A stretch of DNA of 64,000 nucleotides from Fodinibius halophilus (GTDB taxonomy: Bacteria > Bacteroidota > Rhodothermia > Balneolales > Balneolaceae), in contig NZ_JAALLS010000010.1 of assembly GCF_011059105.1 (NCBI RefSeq), positions 1 to 64,000 on the forward strand, read 5' to 3'. Below, piece after piece: positions 17,718 through 60,821 of the stretch. The notes under the pieces were generated by a model. It searched no databases. It was not told the DNA's origin and worked only from the letters and a program-made list of their open reading frames with translations. Every line of letters begins with the position of its first letter. The first letter of the stretch is position 1. A program made the position numbers and the translations under genes.

Positions 17718-17760
17718 ATTCTGAGTTCTGACACCTGAACTCAGGATTCAGCATTCACTC
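17718..17760. repeat. Degenerate short repeats left of four-helix-bundle gene
   Basis: Units of CTGAGTT, CTGAACT, CAGGATT and CAGCATT type form a 7-8-nt periodic run. CTGAGTTC and GAACTCAG (17721-17744) can pair as a small hairpin. The run overlaps the 3' end of the four-helix-bundle gene. Confidence 0.6.
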
Positions 17761-18113
17761 AGTATTGCCTTTGAATAAGCATTAATAAGTTTACTGACTT
17801 CTTGCAGCTTATTATTAAAATCTTCTGAGGCTTCAATATATCCAAGATCTTTTGATAAGATGATATAGTACCTACACTCTTCGAGTGATCCTTGGGAGAT
17901 ATTTAAATAACGTGCTGTATCTTTTTTTTCCCGTTTTTTAAATCCCTCCGCAATATTCGCAGCAATAGAAACAGCTGCTCTTCTAAACTGAGAGGTTAAA
18001 CCATACATTTCTGATTTTGGAAAATCTTCAGTTTGGGCATAAACTTCTAACACAAACTCATGTGCTTTTTGCCATACTATTAAATCTTGGAATGTCTTAG
18101 CTGGTCTCCTCAT
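17748..18113 (-). CDS. Four-helix-bundle protein (S23/IVS-encoded family)
   Basis: A 121-residue protein with the family signatures FQDLIVWQKAHEFVLEVY, MYGLTSQFRRAAVSIAANIAEG and a C-terminal helix with SKDLGYIEASE. The family was named from proteins encoded in 23S rRNA intervening sequences and is related to the Avd accessory protein of diversity-generating retroelements, which binds nucleic acid. It is widespread in Bacteroidota without a known function. It sits between paaZ and the DUF559 unit and is flanked on both sides by short degenerate repeats, which suggests a mobile unit (inference). Confidence 0.88.
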   Translation of the reverse strand: MRRPAKTFQDLIVWQKAHEFVLEVYAQTEDFPKSEMYGLTSQFRRAAVSIAANIAEGFKKREKKDTARYLNISQGSLEECRYYIILSKDLGYIEASEDFNNKLQEVSKLINAYSKAILSEC

Positions 18114-18125
18114 AACATCTCCTAT

Positions 18126-18160
18126 AAATTCTGATTTCTGAGTCCAGAATTCTGATGAAT
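18126..18160. repeat. Degenerate short repeats right of four-helix-bundle gene
   Basis: Units TTCTGAT, TTCTGAG, CAGAATT, CTGATGA repeat with a 7-8-nt period just upstream of the four-helix-bundle start codon. They are related to the runs at 15692 and 17718 and largely in the opposite orientation to the left-hand run. Confidence 0.6.
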
Positions 18161-54225: not shown

Positions 54226-55419
54226 ATCTTTCCAAAAAGGAAGTCCTCACTTAGATTAGAGATAATCAATCGTAACTAACTAAGGAGGACCCCATGATTC
54301 ACGTAGGAATCGATCTTCATACAACTAATATGATGAATGTAGCTTTAAATGACAACGGGGAAGTTGTCCAGAAGGCCAAGCTGCCGACGTCCCGGCGATC
54401 CCTTGAGGATTTTTTCGGTACATTTGATGATCCAGTGAAAGCCGTCGTCGAATGTACCAGCAACTGGTATTGGCTGTCGGACTGGTGTCGGTCCAATGGC
54501 GTGGACCTGACGCTGGCCCACGCGAAGATGGTCAAGGCGATCAGCTATGCCAAGGTCAAAACCGACACGGTTGATGCGAAGACTCTGGCCGAGCTACTAC
54601 AGGCCGACCTTATTCCGGAGGCCTACCAGGTACAACCCGACCGACGAGAGCTGCGGGAGCTGACCCGCGGTCCCGACAGCTGTCGGGATGATCCAGTGGC
54701 GGGGCAAGCTGCAGTCGGCGCTGTGGGGCCAGGCGATCAAGTATAACGTGCAGATCACAGGCAGCCAGTGGCGACAGCTGGATAACCTACAAGCCTGGCT
54801 CCATCCACAATTGCCCAAGGCGGCGGTCTGCAGGCCGAGCTGATGATCGCCCAACTCAGTCAGCTGCAATTGCATATCCATCGGGTAGAAGAAATTGAGA
54901 AACAAGTCCCCTTTGAGGCTGCCGTCGAGTGCCTGATGGCCGTCCCCGGACTGGGCAAGGTAGGGGCATGAACCATTATGGCCGAGATTGGCGATATTAC
55001 CCGATTCCCGAGTGCCAAGCAGTTTGTCAGCTACTGTCGGCTGGTACCGGGTAGTAAAAACAGTGGAGGGAACAGGAGGCATAAATCAGGCAATAAAGAC
55101 GGGAATAAGTACCTGCGAGCAGCTTTCGGGCAAGCAGCCGTCTCTGCATATACCCATTACAAGGTCGTGAAGAAATTTTATCGAAAAATTAAACGCCGCA
55201 GCGGTCGCTCGGTAGCCCGAGCCGTTGTAGGCAAAGAGCTGGCCAAAGGCGTTTGGTATATGTTGACACGAGATGAAGAATACAAAGGATTTAAGGGGCA
55301 TCCCGACAGTTGTCGGGACTCCTTAAACCTGCTGGCCCCAACCGATAAGCCCGAACGCCTAAGAGGGACATCGAGCCCGTGCGCCCCGGTTGGGACATCG
55401 GTTGGCTGGCCGGTTAAAG
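54226..55419 (+). mobile_element. Degenerate IS110-family element in an attC site
   Basis: Begins at the attC crossover point and runs to about 55419, with a possible short inverted end (ATCTTT near 54226 and AAAGAT near 55416). It carries one transposase gene broken in several places. The right side continues into the array repeat at 55420, so the right end of this attC and the beginning of the next are missing, as after an IS-mediated deletion. It is more GC-rich than its surroundings. Confidence 0.7.
54294..55400 (+). pseudogene. IS110-family transposase, frameshifted
   Basis: The first part (IHVGIDLHTTNMMNVAL, VVECTSNWYWLSDW, KVKTDTVDAKTLAELL) is a DEDD-type IS110 N-terminal domain. A palindrome TCCCGACAGCTGTCGGGA at 54671-54688 occurs where the frame changes. 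The next part (IQWRGKLQSALWGQAIKYN to LPKAAV) is one frame over, a base is missing near 54828, and a TGA interrupts at about 54970. The C-terminal part resumes as IMAEIGDITRFPSAKQFVSYCRLVPG. A second palindrome is at 55301-55318. The gene is inactive. Confidence 0.85.
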
Positions 55420-55640
55420 ATCTGGGATAGTGGCTCCGCTGGAGCTACAGTCTCTGTCCATTGACGGAAGATAAGTTCCGACAGCTGTCGGAATGTGGAC
55501 GCCAGCAGGCAGTCCGAGCGTGATCACCGAAACCGGTTGCCAGCTAAAGGTTTGAACCAAGGATTTATTGGAGTAATACGATGCTAAGGTAGGTGAGTCC
55601 GCCAGCCGACGGATTGAGATTTTCCTTTTTGAAGGGGTTA
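55420..55640. repeat. Array repeat block, copy of 49528-49762
   Basis: ATCTGGGATAGT, ACCGAAACCGGTTGCCAGC and AGGTTTGAACCAAGGATTTA segments align in order with the block inside the attC at 49392. It contains the palindrome TTCCGACAGCTGTCGGAA (55476-55493). It abuts the stop codon of the HEPN-like gene. Confidence 0.75.
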
Positions 55641-55649
55641 GTGGTTCTG

Positions 55650-56447
55650 TCAAATTGTTTTACATCTTATTTTATCTCTTGGTATTTCGTGATCAATTGC
55701 ATCAAGCAAGAATTTAAAAGATTTCACGATTTCAAACTCATCATCTACAGAATTTGTCATTCTTAGTAACCAAAAAAACTCTTCAACCTTAGAGCTAATA
55801 TTTATTGGTTCGTTTCCATTGTAGGTTGAATTTCTTTTTAGCTGGATTTTAAAAACCTTCTTATCTTGATCAAATCTTGTATAAATACCATCATCAGTAA
55901 ATGAATGGTGCTCTTCATCATCAATCAACTTATTTTCATCAGTCAAGATCATATGACTTTCAATAATCCAGATCTTACCTCGAACTGATCTTATAAAAAG
56001 GTCTGCTATTTCGACAGCTTCTTTAACTTCATCAAACTGAGGTTTCACATAATCGTGTTCTATTTTATTTCGAATATTTCTGACCTTCGATATCAAATAG
56101 CTTGGTGCAAAATTTAAGGCTTGAATTAATTTTAGAGGTATTGGGGTATTAGGCTCAAAGCTGAATTTTGAAAGAAAAGTATCTCGAGCTTTCTTATTAT
56201 TATTTCTTAAATAAAAAATTGAATGAACTTCGTCCACCTGGCAATCTATTGCTCTTTTTGAATTGGAAAGAACATTTATTAGACCTCGCAAATTACCTAC
56301 CTCTAAATCTTCTTTTGCAAATCTCAGGTAATCTTTTGGCAAAAGATCAAAATCTGTTTTTTGATAGCCATCACCTCCATCGTGTATAATAACAGCCTTA
56401 GTTAAATCTAGTTTAAGAATTTTTAAAAAATCTTTGAGCGAGTTCAC
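55650..56447 (-). CDS. HEPN-like domain protein (hypothetical)
   Basis: A 265-residue protein. A helical middle part ends YLISKVRNIRNKIEHDY, where RNKIEH fits the Rx4H signature of HEPN RNase-type domains. An unknown beta-rich C-terminal part follows. No signal peptide or membrane helix is seen. HEPN proteins often act in phage defence or toxin systems, and integron cassettes often carry such genes; here the function is only inferred. It is bounded by inverted GGTTAGTGGTTCT segments at 55636 and 56466. Confidence 0.55.
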   Translation of the reverse strand: MNSLKDFLKILKLDLTKAVIIHDGGDGYQKTDFDLLPKDYLRFAKEDLEVGNLRGLINVLSNSKRAIDCQVDEVHSIFYLRNNNKKARDTFLSKFSFEPNTPIPLKLIQALNFAPSYLISKVRNIRNKIEHDYVKPQFDEVKEAVEIADLFIRSVRGKIWIIESHMILTDENKLIDDEEHHSFTDDGIYTRFDQDKKVFKIQLKRNSTYNGNEPINISSKVEEFFWLLRMTNSVDDEFEIVKSFKFLLDAIDHEIPRDKIRCKTI

Positions 56448-56467
56448 AATTGATATGATTTAAGAAC

Positions 56468-56623
56468 CACTAACCTATAATTATGTCAACTAGGTATTTG
56501 TATAATAATATTATCATTCAGAGCTATAATGTGCCCAAATCCTTTTAAAAGCCAAAAAATAATATTATACGGGAATGTTATGTCAATTAAATGCAGCATA
56601 ACATGTTGACATAATATGACAAC
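56468..56623 (-). other. attC-like site at the right end of the array
   Basis: CACTAAC (56468-56474) is a near-consensus outer box, and ATTATGTCAAC (56480-56490) pairs perfectly with GTTGACATAAT (56605-56615). The right outer box is degraded. This is the last cassette-like junction before paaY. No integrase gene lies beyond it in the window. Confidence 0.5.
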
Positions 56624-56698
56624 CGCAGAGGACGACCTAGAGGGGTAAAGTTCCAGACCATCAGGCGATTGATCTCACAGAAATAGGGGGCAATACCA

Positions 56699-56740
56699 TT
56701 TACCAAATAACCAATTAACTAATAACAAATAACCATTACC
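56699..56740. repeat. Degenerate TAACCAA/TAACTAA short repeats
   Basis: Units AATAACCAA, TTAACTAA, TAACAAA and TAACCATT recur with a 7-8-nt period just beyond the paaY stop codon. The same unit family flanks the four-helix-bundle gene on the other side of paaY. Confidence 0.65.
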
Positions 56741-56748
56741 CAACCAAA

Positions 56749-57339
56749 TCACTTCCGCTTGCCCCAGGTCTCATATTTAGCCGACTGGCTGGGACGGTCT
56801 TTGGGCTCCTCGCGCAGGGGTTCACACTCCTTGAGGGAATCATGGAGCTGTCCCGGCAGTTTTTGGTAGAGCTTGGTGCCTTGGGTCTTCCATTTGATCA
56901 TCTCATCACTTACATCTTTGACGATTTTAGCGGGATTCCCCACCACCAACTTCCGTTTGGGAATCTCCATACCTTCTTTTAGAAATGACATGGCGCCTAC
57001 AATACACTCAGGGCCCAGCTCTACGCGATCCATCACCACCGCATTCATCCCCACCAGGCAGTTGCGGCCAATATGTCCCCCGTGAATTATAGCTCCGTGA
57101 CCGATATGCGCACTCTCTTCGAGCACCACCGTCACGCCCGGAAACATATGGATGGTGCAGTTCTCCTGTACGTTGCAGCCGTCTTTGATCACAATCTTGC
57201 CCCAGTCGCCGCGGATGGCGGCCCCCGGCGCGATATACACATCCTTGCCGATCACCACGTTGCCCGTGACCGCGGCCTGCGGGTGCACGTAGGCACTTTC
57301 ATCAACCACCGGTTTGTATCCGTCAAATTCGTAAATCAC
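56749..57339 (-). CDS. paaY: PaaY-type thioesterase (gamma-carbonic-anhydrase fold)
   Basis: A 196-residue left-handed beta-helix protein with hexapeptide repeats (VTGNVVIGKDVYIAPGAAIRGDWGKIVIKDG) and the metal-site histidines in HIGHGAIIHGG. The length and C-terminal tail fit PaaY, which hydrolyses dead-end CoA thioesters of the phenylacetate pathway. It is the last paa gene on this strand. Confidence 0.9.
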   Translation of the reverse strand: MIYEFDGYKPVVDESAYVHPQAAVTGNVVIGKDVYIAPGAAIRGDWGKIVIKDGCNVQENCTIHMFPGVTVVLEESAHIGHGAIIHGGHIGRNCLVGMNAVVMDRVELGPECIVGAMSFLKEGMEIPKRKLVVGNPAKIVKDVSDEMIKWKTQGTKLYQKLPGQLHDSLKECEPLREEPKDRPSQSAKYETWGKRK

Positions 57340-57340
57340 A

Positions 57341-57371
57341 GCTTGTTATTAGTTAATGGTTATTGGTTATT
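57341..57371. repeat. GTTATTA-type short repeats, left of second four-helix-bundle gene
   Basis: GTTATTAGTTAATGGTTATT and GGTTATTAGG form a 7-8-nt periodic run in the opposite orientation to the run at 57808-57893, so the gene between is framed by inverted repeat arrays. Confidence 0.7.
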
Positions 57372-57797
57372 AGGCTCCGAACCATATTCAATAGAAGGTT
57401 CCTTGGTAATATGATTTTGCTTGGCCTTCTTCAAATAAGCAATGTATCCATTTAATAATTTGATACAAGTTGTTATTTGGGTACTGATTTTTTCTGTTTC
57501 ATTAGGGGACAAATATTTTTCGTCAATACTACAGCTTATGTGGTCCAAAAGTTCATATAATGATCCTCTGGCTTGTCGGCAGAACTGAATATTTTCCTGG
57601 TAGTGGAACCTGCCATACCCTTCCGCAATATTAGCAGTTACTGATCTTGATGCGCGTAATAGTTGATCTTTGAGTCGGTACTTTTCTTCATCCGGCAACT
57701 TGTTCGCGAGGATAGAGGTTTCTTTTCTAACCTCACGACAATCTTGCCAAACTTTGAGATCCTTAAATGATTGTATCTCTTTTTGGGATGAATCCAT
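57360..57797 (-). CDS. Four-helix-bundle protein (S23/IVS-encoded family)
   Basis: A 145-residue protein with FKDLKVWQDCREVRKET, LKDQLLRASRSVTANIAEGYGRF and CSIDEKYLSPNE, the conserved blocks of the family. Its C-terminal codons are within the left repeat run. It separates paaY from the thiolase gene in an otherwise continuous paa run, and has the same architecture as the gene at 17748 but with different repeat units. Confidence 0.9.
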   Translation of the reverse strand: MDSSQKEIQSFKDLKVWQDCREVRKETSILANKLPDEEKYRLKDQLLRASRSVTANIAEGYGRFHYQENIQFCRQARGSLYELLDHISCSIDEKYLSPNETEKISTQITTCIKLLNGYIAYLKKAKQNHITKEPSIEYGSEPNNQ

Positions 57798-57807
57798 GTT
57801 TACCTAT

Positions 57808-57893
57808 CAACGAATAACAACTAACAAATAACCATTAACCAATAACTAATAACCAATAACAATTAACTATTAACTATTAACTACCAACAAATA
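57808..57893. repeat. TAACTAT/TAACCAA short tandem repeat array, right of four-helix-bundle gene
   Basis: About a dozen degenerate 7-8-nt units (CTAATAAC, CAATAACA, ATTAACT, ATTAACT, ATTAACTA). The array resembles the heptanucleotide STRR repeats of cyanobacteria in style. It fills the space between the thiolase stop and the four-helix-bundle start. Confidence 0.75.
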
Positions 57894-57894
57894 A

Positions 57895-59100
57895 CTAAGC
57901 TTTTTCCAGGATGACAGCCATGCCTTGGCCTACGCCTACGCAGAGTGTACAGAGCGCATAGCGTTGATCCTGCTCGTGCAGCTCAATAGCTGCCGTTTGC
58001 AGCAGTCGTGCCCCTGACATACCCAGCGGATGTCCCAGTGCAATAGCACCGCCGTGTGGATTTACCCGTGGATCATCATCGGCAATACCCAGCTCACGCA
58101 GCACCGCCAGGCTCTGGGCCGCAAAGGCCTCATTCAGTTCAATAACACCCATATCGTTAAGCGACAGGTCGGTGCGGCCGAGCACCTTCTTGGTAGCATC
58201 TACCGGACCCATCCCCATAATACGGGGTTCAACACCCACTACGGCCGAAGCCACAATGCGTGCCATCGGTTCCAGGTCGAAATCCTTAATGGCCGAATCG
58301 CCGGCAATCAGCATAGCACAGGACCCGTCATTGATACCGCTGGCATTACCGGGCGTTACCGAGCCGCCATCACGGAACACCGCAGGCAGCTTGCTAAGGA
58401 CTTCCACCGTAGTGTCCGGACGAATAAACTCATCATTCTCGAAAATTTTGGGATCACTTTTTCTTTGGGGGATCTCCACCGGCATAATCTCTTTGGCCAG
58501 TCGTCCGCTTTCGGTAGCCTGGGCCGCTTTCTGTTGTGATCGGGCCGAAAATTTGTCTTGGTCTTCGCGACTCACGCCAAACTTCTCCACAATATTTTCT
58601 GCTGTCTGGCCCATCGCTTCACTGCCGTACTCTTCATCCATCTTGGGATTCACAAAGCGCCAGCCAAAGGTGGTATCATGCATCTCGTTAGTACCGGAGT
58701 AGGGTGCTGATCCTTTGCCCAGCACCATCGGTCCGCGAGTCATATGCTCCATCCCGCCCGTAATAAAGAGGTCGCCTTCACCTACCTTAATAGACTTATA
58801 GGCCATCACTGCACTGCTCATGCCCGAGGCACAGAGGCGGTTTACGGTTTCGCCGGGTACCGAGGTGGGCAGTCCTGCCAGCAGAGAAGCCATTCGTGCT
58901 ACATTGCGATTATCTTCGCCCGCCTGGTTAGCGCATCCCAAAACAACATCTTCAATGCGTTCGGGATCAATATCAGGATTACGGTTCATAAGCTCCTTGA
59001 TCGGCAGTGCAGCCAGATCGTCGGCACGGATGGGGGAGAGCGATCCGCGGTATTTGCCGATTGGAGTTCGAATGGCGTCAATAATATAAGCTTCAGACAT
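57895..59100 (-). CDS. paaJ: 3-oxoadipyl-CoA thiolase (PaaJ/PcaF)
   Basis: A 401-residue thiolase with nucleophile Cys90 in NRLCASGMS, NPHGGAIALGHPLGMSGARL with the catalytic His, and CTLCVGVGQG with the second Cys. It cleaves 3-oxoadipyl-CoA to succinyl-CoA and acetyl-CoA. The length equals E. coli PaaJ. PcaF of the protocatechuate pathway is equally close, but the paa context favours PaaJ. Confidence 0.93.
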   Translation of the reverse strand: MSEAYIIDAIRTPIGKYRGSLSPIRADDLAALPIKELMNRNPDIDPERIEDVVLGCANQAGEDNRNVARMASLLAGLPTSVPGETVNRLCASGMSSAVMAYKSIKVGEGDLFITGGMEHMTRGPMVLGKGSAPYSGTNEMHDTTFGWRFVNPKMDEEYGSEAMGQTAENIVEKFGVSREDQDKFSARSQQKAAQATESGRLAKEIMPVEIPQRKSDPKIFENDEFIRPDTTVEVLSKLPAVFRDGGSVTPGNASGINDGSCAMLIAGDSAIKDFDLEPMARIVASAVVGVEPRIMGMGPVDATKKVLGRTDLSLNDMGVIELNEAFAAQSLAVLRELGIADDDPRVNPHGGAIALGHPLGMSGARLLQTAAIELHEQDQRYALCTLCVGVGQGMAVILEKA

Positions 59101-59582: not shown

Positions 59583-59649
59583 GATTCAAGTTACAGGATT
59601 CAGGATGCTACATCACGCATCACGTATTACGTATCACGCATTACTTGTC
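59583..59649. repeat. CACGTAT/CACGCAT short repeats
   Basis: Units TCACGCA, TCACGTA, TTACGTA, TCACGCA, TTACTTG, TCACGAA with a 7-8-nt period between paaH and paaI, preceded by AGATTCAAGTTACAGGATTC. Its unit differs from the neighbouring repeat runs. Confidence 0.65.
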
Positions 59650-59654
59650 ACGAA

Positions 59655-60821
59655 TCAATGAAACGTCTCGTTATTTCGAACCTTCCGCTTCAGCAGTGGA
59701 TTGGGTCGGTAGCGGTCTTCGCCGTACTCTTCCTGTAATTTCTCCATACGCTTCAGCACGGTGTCTAGTCCCAGCTCATCAGCCCACTTCAGCAATCCTT
59801 TGGGATAGTTCACGCCTTTGGTCATCGCTAAATCAACATCTTCAATGGTGGCTACATTCATAAACACCGCATCGGCGGCCTCATTTATTAACATAGCTAC
59901 AATGCGATCTACAATCTGTTGTCCCAAGGCTTCATCCTTGGTGGGTTCGGGATTGTCAGCTTCATCCCCATACTCATAAAAACCTTTGCCCGATTTCTTG
60001 CCCAGCCAGCCGGCCTCTACCAAGCGCTTCTGTGTAAATGAGGGCTTGAAACGGGGATCGTAGAAAAACTCTTTAAACACGGTTTCAGTCACCTTGTAGT
60101 TTACATCGTGACCAATGAAATCCATCAGTTCAAAAGGTCCCATGCGGAAGCCGCCAATCTCTTTCATTGCCCAGTCTATCGTAGGCACGTCGGCCACGCC
60201 TTCTTCGAGCTGTCGGATCGCCTCGCTGTAAAAGGGACGGGCAACACGGTTTACGATAAAGCCGGGGGTATCTTTGGCCAATACCGTGGTTTTGCCCCAG
60301 CTGTTGATAAGGGCGCGGGCACTTTCAGTGGTATCGTCCGTTGTGGGGATACCGGGGACGATCTCAACCAGTGGCATAATAGGCGCCGGGTTAAAGAAGT
60401 GAATCCCCAGAAAACGTTTGGGCTTTTTAAGTGCTGATGAGATAGAGGCGATAGACAGGGAAGAGGTGTTGGTGGCCAGGATACAGTCGCGCGGGACAAT
60501 CCCTTCCAGCCGTTGAAAGACATCCTGCTTAATATCCAGGTCTTCAACAACCGCTTCAATGACGCATGAACACTCATCAAAATTGGTGAGGTCTTCCACG
60601 AAGTGGATGCGATCCATAATATCGTTAACCTCTTTCTGGCTCATCCGCTCTTTTTCGACCTGTCGCTGCAGGATTTTACGGAGAGCGTGTTTGGCGTTAC
60701 CCAGCTGATCGGGGTAGGCATCATACAGGTACACCTTGTGTTTGTTAGTTGATGCAATTTGGGCAATGCCTTGTCCCATAGTGCCGGCCCCTACAACGCC
60801 GATAGTTGTGTCTTGATCCAT
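59655..60821 (-). CDS. paaH: PaaH-type 3-hydroxyacyl-CoA dehydrogenase
   Basis: A 388-residue enzyme with the NAD-binding motif GVVGAGTMGQGIAQIAS, the segment VIEAVVEDLDIKQDVF, the catalytic-His region LGIHFFNPAPIMPLVEIV, and two C-terminal 3HCDH helical domains. It oxidises 3-hydroxyadipyl-CoA. E. coli PaaH is longer (475 residues); the extra C-terminal region is absent here. Confidence 0.93.
   Translation of the reverse strand: MDQDTTIGVVGAGTMGQGIAQIASTNKHKVYLYDAYPDQLGNAKHALRKILQRQVEKERMSQKEVNDIMDRIHFVEDLTNFDECSCVIEAVVEDLDIKQDVFQRLEGIVPRDCILATNTSSLSIASISSALKKPKRFLGIHFFNPAPIMPLVEIVPGIPTTDDTTESARALINSWGKTTVLAKDTPGFIVNRVARPFYSEAIRQLEEGVADVPTIDWAMKEIGGFRMGPFELMDFIGHDVNYKVTETVFKEFFYDPRFKPSFTQKRLVEAGWLGKKSGKGFYEYGDEADNPEPTKDEALGQQIVDRIVAMLINEAADAVFMNVATIEDVDLAMTKGVNYPKGLLKWADELGLDTVLKRMEKLQEEYGEDRYRPNPLLKRKVRNNETFH

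Follow-up and report, generated by a model that had tools for sequence, protein, structure and literature searches.

A four-helix-bundle gene of Fodinibius halophilus framed by inverted heptamer arrays as a probable copy of a small mobile element of bacteria

In a window of 64,000 nucleotides from Fodinibius halophilus (contig NZ_JAALLS010000010.1, the whole stretch of DNA that was analysed), a small gene for a four-helix-bundle (4HB) protein lies at 57.3 kb between two arrays of short repeats that face each other in inverted orientation. The locus raises the question of whether the gene and the arrays form one unit and, if so, of what kind. Judging from sequence comparisons, we consider it probable that the locus holds a resident copy of a small mobile element of bacteria, ~0.4-0.6 kb long and composed of one 4HB gene and terminal inverted arrays, whose short, degenerate unit has a period of 7, sometimes 8.

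The 57.3-kb locus and its counterparts in the genus

The preliminary description of this DNA had placed a four-helix-bundle gene framed by inverted arrays at 57341-57893, and both the gene and its frame proved to be real, the coordinates taking in the gene and both arrays (57345-57897, Table 1). The protein matched TIGR02436 with an E-value of 1.2e-28 and 99.5 bits against a curated cut-off of 24, and the PF05635 profile with 107.2 bits against a curated cut-off of 33.8. Its AlphaFold2 model was predicted as four helices with a pLDDT of 90, and structure comparison returned strong matches to 2gsc (XCC0516) and 2rld and weaker ones to Avd (4dwl) and to the reverse-transcriptase complex of a diversity-generating retroelement (DGR; 8ube/8ub7). 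Tandem Repeats Finder (TRF) reported GTTATTAGTTAATGGTTATTGGTTATTAG as the left array and 12 copies of TAACNNN units with period 7 as the right array, and the arms at 57345-57373 and 57846-57874 are 93% complementary across 29 nt. The stop of the 4HB gene falls within the left array, and the thiolase stop codon is supplied or overlapped by the outer end of the right array. The 4HB gene is the only gene within the element, which sits between the thiolase and paaY genes, not inside a 23S rRNA gene, and Rfam gave no match in window positions 56000-58500. The AGCTT on both outer sides of the element is compatible with a target-site duplication and alone is not significant; as the paaY locus offers no exact empty site for comparison, this candidate is weak by itself.

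Table 1. Coordinates of the 4HB loci and neighbouring features in the window
Feature	Position	Strand	Basis or remark
4HB gene (TIGR02436 / PF05635), 145 aa	57360..57797	(-)	profile matches, ORF, AlphaFold2 model
Left array, downstream arm of the gene, GTTATTN on + strand	57345..57373		TRF; overlaps the last codons of the gene
Right array, upstream arm of the gene, TAACNNN on + strand, ~12 units	about 57806..57897		TRF
AGCTT directly outside left array	57340..57344		candidate target-site duplication, left copy
AGCTT directly outside right array	57898..57902		candidate target-site duplication, right copy
Third TAACNNN array, gene-less, beyond paaY	56695..56743		TRF, inverted-pair scan
Thiolase, upstream host gene	57895..59100	(-)	stop codon abuts array
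paaY-like, downstream host gene	56749..57339	(-)	
Second 4HB gene, TCAGAAT-unit subfamily	17748..18113	(-)	profile match, unit comparison
Degenerate array, ATTCTGA-like, downstream side of 17.7-kb gene	17718..17755		read directly
Degenerate array, ATTCTGA-like, upstream side of 17.7-kb gene	18128..18160		read directly

The second 4HB gene of the window, at 17.7 kb, has the same layout with weak arrays, for which TRF gave no report at score 30. The two loci thus share an architecture and differ in unit (GTTATTN and TCAGAAT, which are unrelated), as had been described before. PF05635 matched 15 times in the F. halophilus genome, and many of the 15 copies lie between short inverted repeats whose unit differs from copy to copy. 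When we scanned a sample of about 464 kb of this genome for well-separated, non-overlapping inverted pairs with periodic arms, only 4 were found. Three of these flank 4HB genes, and the fourth joins the left array to the third array across paaY; in the block-shuffled control, 1 pair passed the same filter. The third array has opposite polarity around paaY, and a similar one occurs in genome G006 of the genus. Elsewhere in the window, a period-7 CATCACG array with no adjoining 4HB gene lies at 59611-59657, between a 142-aa ORF and a 388-aa ORF (59655-60821), and the ORFs at 54294-54746 and 54978-55430 look by eye like a broken IS110-type transposase gene.

The thiolase-paaY junction was then compared in 10 genomes of the same genus. 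Four had the gene together with its arrays, G003 had GTTANNN arrays but no gene, G004 had half an array, and the remaining 4 had hairpins of other units; the junction lacking the gene, for which a search in sister strains had been suggested, is therefore found in some sister species. Gene-less hairpins of ACAGAGG, CACTAAG and GCAGATT types were seen there in G001, G009, G010 and G011 (L044-L051). At the junction after paaY, short gene-less arrays of TCAGAAT type precede a paaZ-like gene in several species. Since dN/dS of the paaY-junction gene between G000 and G006 was 0.07, purifying selection has, on sequence evidence, maintained this copy, and several species have it by descent. A value this low would also be expected of a useful host gene and, together with the vertical presence at one junction in four species, it speaks for a module that serves the host. 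In such a module, which would act in autoregulation or mRNA processing, the 4HB protein would bind the arrays within the mRNA of its operon and control the cutting or coupling of the neighbours; the arrays and the gene would spread solely by descent and ordinary horizontal transfer. The stable stem predicted to close the element in RNA (z of -4.5 at 57.3 kb and -7.1 in Nostoc) fits that explanation as well.

Inverted arrays around 4HB genes and their units

For each 4HB locus, we aligned the left flank to the reverse-complemented right flank of that locus, with the right flanks of other loci as the control. Across 262 unique 4HB loci from many phyla, the self score was 19.0 compared with 10.2 for mismatched pairs, and 116 of the 262 loci exceeded the 99th percentile of the control, where 2.6 were expected. 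The direct-orientation control yielded 21 loci, and 4HB-sized ORFs of the F. halophilus genome had a mean arm score of 10.7. Arm pairing was also seen in the genus alone, in 73 loci of many phyla, and in 30 XCC0516-like Pseudomonadota loci. Considering that 56% of the loci did not exceed the strict 99th percentile, many arrays are decayed or absent. The best arm lag was 7 in 72 of 112 loci and 8 in 26, and G exceeded C in the sense-strand upstream arm of 112 out of 116 loci, corresponding to a single polarity with the G-bearing strand upstream and the C-bearing strand downstream. Gene-less arrays with units of 4HB elements also occur.

With respect to placement, in the 104 loci whose upstream gene runs in the same direction, the array started a median of 1 nt from the upstream stop, and within 12 nt of it in 61. 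The 4HB genes are in sense orientation in operons in 97 cases versus 8, the same ratio as that of ordinary genes (221 versus 24). We had regarded the sense bias as a sign of insertion at the RNA level, and this idea was dropped because ordinary ORFs of the genome share the ratio; the same resemblance to ordinary genes counts in favor of the host-serving module. Copies of PF05635 per genome in the genus ranged from 1 to 15, truncated and broken ones included. At least one 4HB copy was present in 297 of 394 genomes sampled from the phylum, which places 4HB/IVP, a family with no assigned function, among the phylum's most copied small genes.

To compare units with proteins, we examined the arms of relatives of both window proteins. 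Among relatives of the 57.3-kb protein, with identities of about 46-76%, the arms are GGTTATT-, GTTAATT- or GGTAATT-like, while TCAGAAT- and AGAAGTC-like arms accompany relatives of the 17.7-kb protein, the cyanobacterial plasmid genes of that subfamily included. Leave-one-out sorting by flank 4-mers, run after orthologous sites were removed, was correct for 34 of 36 loci, compared with at most 28 in 500 label shuffles. A part of this signal is background, because an outer-flank control taken 300-420 nt away also reached 28 of 36. In a global Mantel test of unit against protein, using 4-mer spectra of deduplicated flanks at all loci, the correlation was not significant (r of 0.072, permutation maximum 0.126), and unit similarity increased only above about 50% protein identity; a Mantel test with orthologous sites kept is inflated and was left unused. 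The unit, as read from these flanks, varies between protein subfamilies and is kept within each, which agrees with the covariation of unit and protein that had been put forward for checking. The suggestion that structure rather than sequence is conserved holds for period and polarity; the sequence is not free, because the unit is kept within a subfamily.

These results bear on whether the arrays are simply generic short tandemly repeated repetitive (STRR) sequences expanded by slippage, with a gene nearby by chance. Heptamer repeats are indeed widespread in cyanobacteria and Bacteroidetes (PMC4679880), and some arrays occur without the gene. Such an origin is contradicted by the mismatched-pair and direct-orientation controls, by the specificity of periodic inverted pairs for 4HB flanks in the F. 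halophilus genome, by the way the unit follows the protein subfamily, and by the joint arrival of the gene and both arrays at the empty sites described below, and we regard it as very improbable.

Filled and empty sites and the means of movement

Closely related cyanobacterial plasmids provided sites with and without the element. At the first site, between two conjugation-region genes, plasmids of Trichormus and Scytonema are filled with the gene and arrays, whereas those of Microchaete, Aulosira and N. carneum are empty, with about 97.5-98% identity along the stretch. The empty sequence is AAAAAGTAATTAAC and the filled one AAAAA-GTAAT-[insert]-GTAAT-TAAC, where the insert of 428 bp has array units at both ends and is bordered by the 5-bp repeat GTAAT. 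Three further Nostoc sites have the repeats TTCTA, TACTAAG and TAATG/TTATG, the last with one mismatch. As two of the four duplications allow a longer imperfect reading, we give their length as 5-8 bp. At the empty sites, the insert is precise and comprises the gene and arrays together (~0.4-0.5 kb), and the target lies in or beside the stop codon of the upstream gene at all 4 plasmid sites. By comparison of these sequences, the gene and arrays are shown to be inserted as a discrete unit between cistrons, where a short stretch of the target at or next to the upstream stop is duplicated, and the four filled and empty sites support mobility. The first site holds a gene-less hairpin with the unit of the Trichormus/Scytonema insert in a Brasilonema plasmid and an internally deleted copy in a Nostoc plasmid. 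A search for target duplications from flanks alone gave no genome-wide signal (24% versus 20%).

The element has entered cas6-cas4, cas10-cmr3, sufA-sufB and apparently accB-accC junctions. In three cyanobacterial plasmids (L242, L243 and L263), 4HB elements lie in cas6-cas4 (type I-D) and cas10-cmr3 (type III-B) junctions, which may explain the CRISPR-linked 23S rRNA IVP proteins (PMC10910872). No boundary was readable in the cas10-cmr3 and Anabaena/Dolichospermum cas6-cas4 comparisons, which were too diverged or had a partner with another hairpin. In Dolichospermum pUHCC0315a (L253), the cas6-cas4 gap that a 4HB element occupies in Anabaena sp. 90 has a different insert, bounded by GTAGGTTGGGTTGA and AACCCAACCTAC. 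The 4HB gene between a sufA-like gene and sufB is on Riemerella anatipestifer NZ_CP081930 (L240), a 101-kb record labelled as a plasmid that carries lepA and suf genes and appears chromosomal. Entry into such unrelated operons argues against the host-serving module, as do the cleanly empty sites and short duplications seen among near-identical plasmids, the gene-less array pairs, and the copy range at unrelated sites with decayed copies among them. We therefore consider a host-serving module unlikely.

If the element is mobile, it could be moved in trans by an unrelated enzyme, either a reverse transcriptase or a Y1/RAYT-type transposase, with the 4HB protein as an accessory or passenger. The 4HB family includes DGR Avd, a partner of reverse transcriptase, and the copy number of Y1_Tnp tracks that of 4HB genes with a rho of 0.84 in 12 genomes. 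However, RVT_1 had no match in four genomes with 2-6 4HB copies each, so a reverse transcriptase in the same genome was rejected as a requirement. The Y1 transposase genes of the genus (L329-L348) have their own REP-like inverted hairpins (self 19.9 versus 10.6) and no heptamer arrays; Y1/RAYT was rejected as the mover since its genes have other ends despite the correlated copy numbers. Short target duplications are also not expected in Y1 transposition (IS200/IS605), and IS4-type DDE genes are absent from most genus genomes examined. Movement in trans thus appears improbable, even more so than the host-serving module.

Returning to the element with its own ends, the 4HB protein, likely a pentamer as are its relatives XCC0516 and DGR Avd, probably binds the array as DNA or RNA. 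XCC0516 is described as five assembled four-helix bundles (Lin et al. 2006, as cited in PMC10053308), and a ring of like subunits set against a repeat in which a few letters are fixed would be an economical way of reading arrays. Each unit's fixed letters could serve as repeated points of contact, by which the element's own ends would be marked for mobilisation; no catalytic residue was recognised in the 4HB protein. In the operon transcript, the arms would pair into a long stem from which RNase III could cut the insert, as in the 23S rRNA intervening sequences (IVS), and this removal would let the host operon tolerate the element. Gene-less array pairs would be derivatives that keep the ends only. 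We put forward more tentatively, as a proposal that we doubt somewhat more than we believe, that the 4HB protein, in elements devoid of a transposase, recognises the heptamer arrays particular to its own subfamily and is itself what drives insertion at stop codons in many phyla, possibly via an RNA intermediate, and that the cyanobacterial, Xanthomonas and Geobacter heptamers are the gene-less derivatives of such elements.

Taken as a whole, the structure is real and general, and it is most likely a small mobile element that ends in arrays and was until now known only in fragments. Heptamer repeats have had no agreed origin, the published views being quadruplexes, IHF sites and regulatory repeats, and tying them to the ends of a single-protein element gives a source and makes the origin testable. 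Several unexplained bacterial repeat families would thereby be linked with a single apparent mobile element. If the protein does recognise a repeat whose unit changes along with it, nature would offer a collection of matched pairs of protein and DNA, or of protein and RNA.

Comparison with known systems

The 23S rRNA IVS with an S23/IVP ORF, such as that of Coxiella burnetii (PMC4990558), shares with the present copies the PF05635 family, a size of about 0.4 kb and complementary ends that form a stem around the ORF; the 28-bp Coxiella stem is cut by RNase III in vitro (PMC4990558). The present copies differ in that they lie in operon junctions of protein genes and end in tandem heptamer arrays with a subfamily-specific unit. 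DGR Avd is alike in fold with a weak family match, but the scores, 20.8 bits for the 57.3-kb protein and a second of 36.6 bits, were far below the equivalog cut-off of 80 bits, and no reverse-transcriptase ORF was seen adjacent to the 57.3-kb gene. MITEs and REP/RAYT elements are likewise short, with inverted ends, in intergenic junctions. Neither a known transposase nor ends derived from one were found here, and the RAYT genes of the genus have different hairpins. Discrete insertion with target-site duplication, as in IS elements and MITEs, was found at the plasmid sites, and the F. halophilus locus has the candidate AGCTT only.

The Xanthomonas GGGNATC and Geobacter MTYCTGA heptamers have already been described, and the link to a 4HB gene is not made there. 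In Geobacter metallireducens, the class 1-3 sites consist of two runs on opposite strands, each of 3-5 tandem 7-9-mers, separated by a variable distance (Aklujkar et al., PMC2700814). The MTYCTGA unit of class 3 is that of the 17.7-kb locus, whereas in that study the sites were taken to bind IHF/HU, and no gene entered the interpretation. In X. campestris, 186 GGGAATC-type arrays with 70 convergent pairs were reported (Rehm 2015, PMC4692102), and GGGNATC arrays near stop codons and between aligned ORFs were described as quadruplex repeats, with no tie to mobile elements found. These Xanthomonas/Nostoc repeats resemble the present arrays in their period of 7, convergent inverted pairs and G strand near stop codons, although no gene link was proposed for them. 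The closest sampled relative of X. campestris XCC0516 (L362, 65% identical) has GGGATTC arrays upstream and GAATCCC downstream, at an apparent accB-accC junction as judged by the sequences of the neighbours. Among the passages of open-access papers that we consulted, no proposal of a link between the 4HB family and heptamer repeats was found. Lastly, the likeness to cyanobacterial STRR that had been pointed out concerns tandem 7-mers in intergenic DNA, and membership is by form only, STRR not being a homology family. Cyanobacterial 4HB genes themselves have arrays on their flanks, GGGTGTA and GGGAGTC among them, and in Nodularia the GGGTGTA pattern is present at a 4HB element and two further places; what stands of the likeness is a kinship of architecture.
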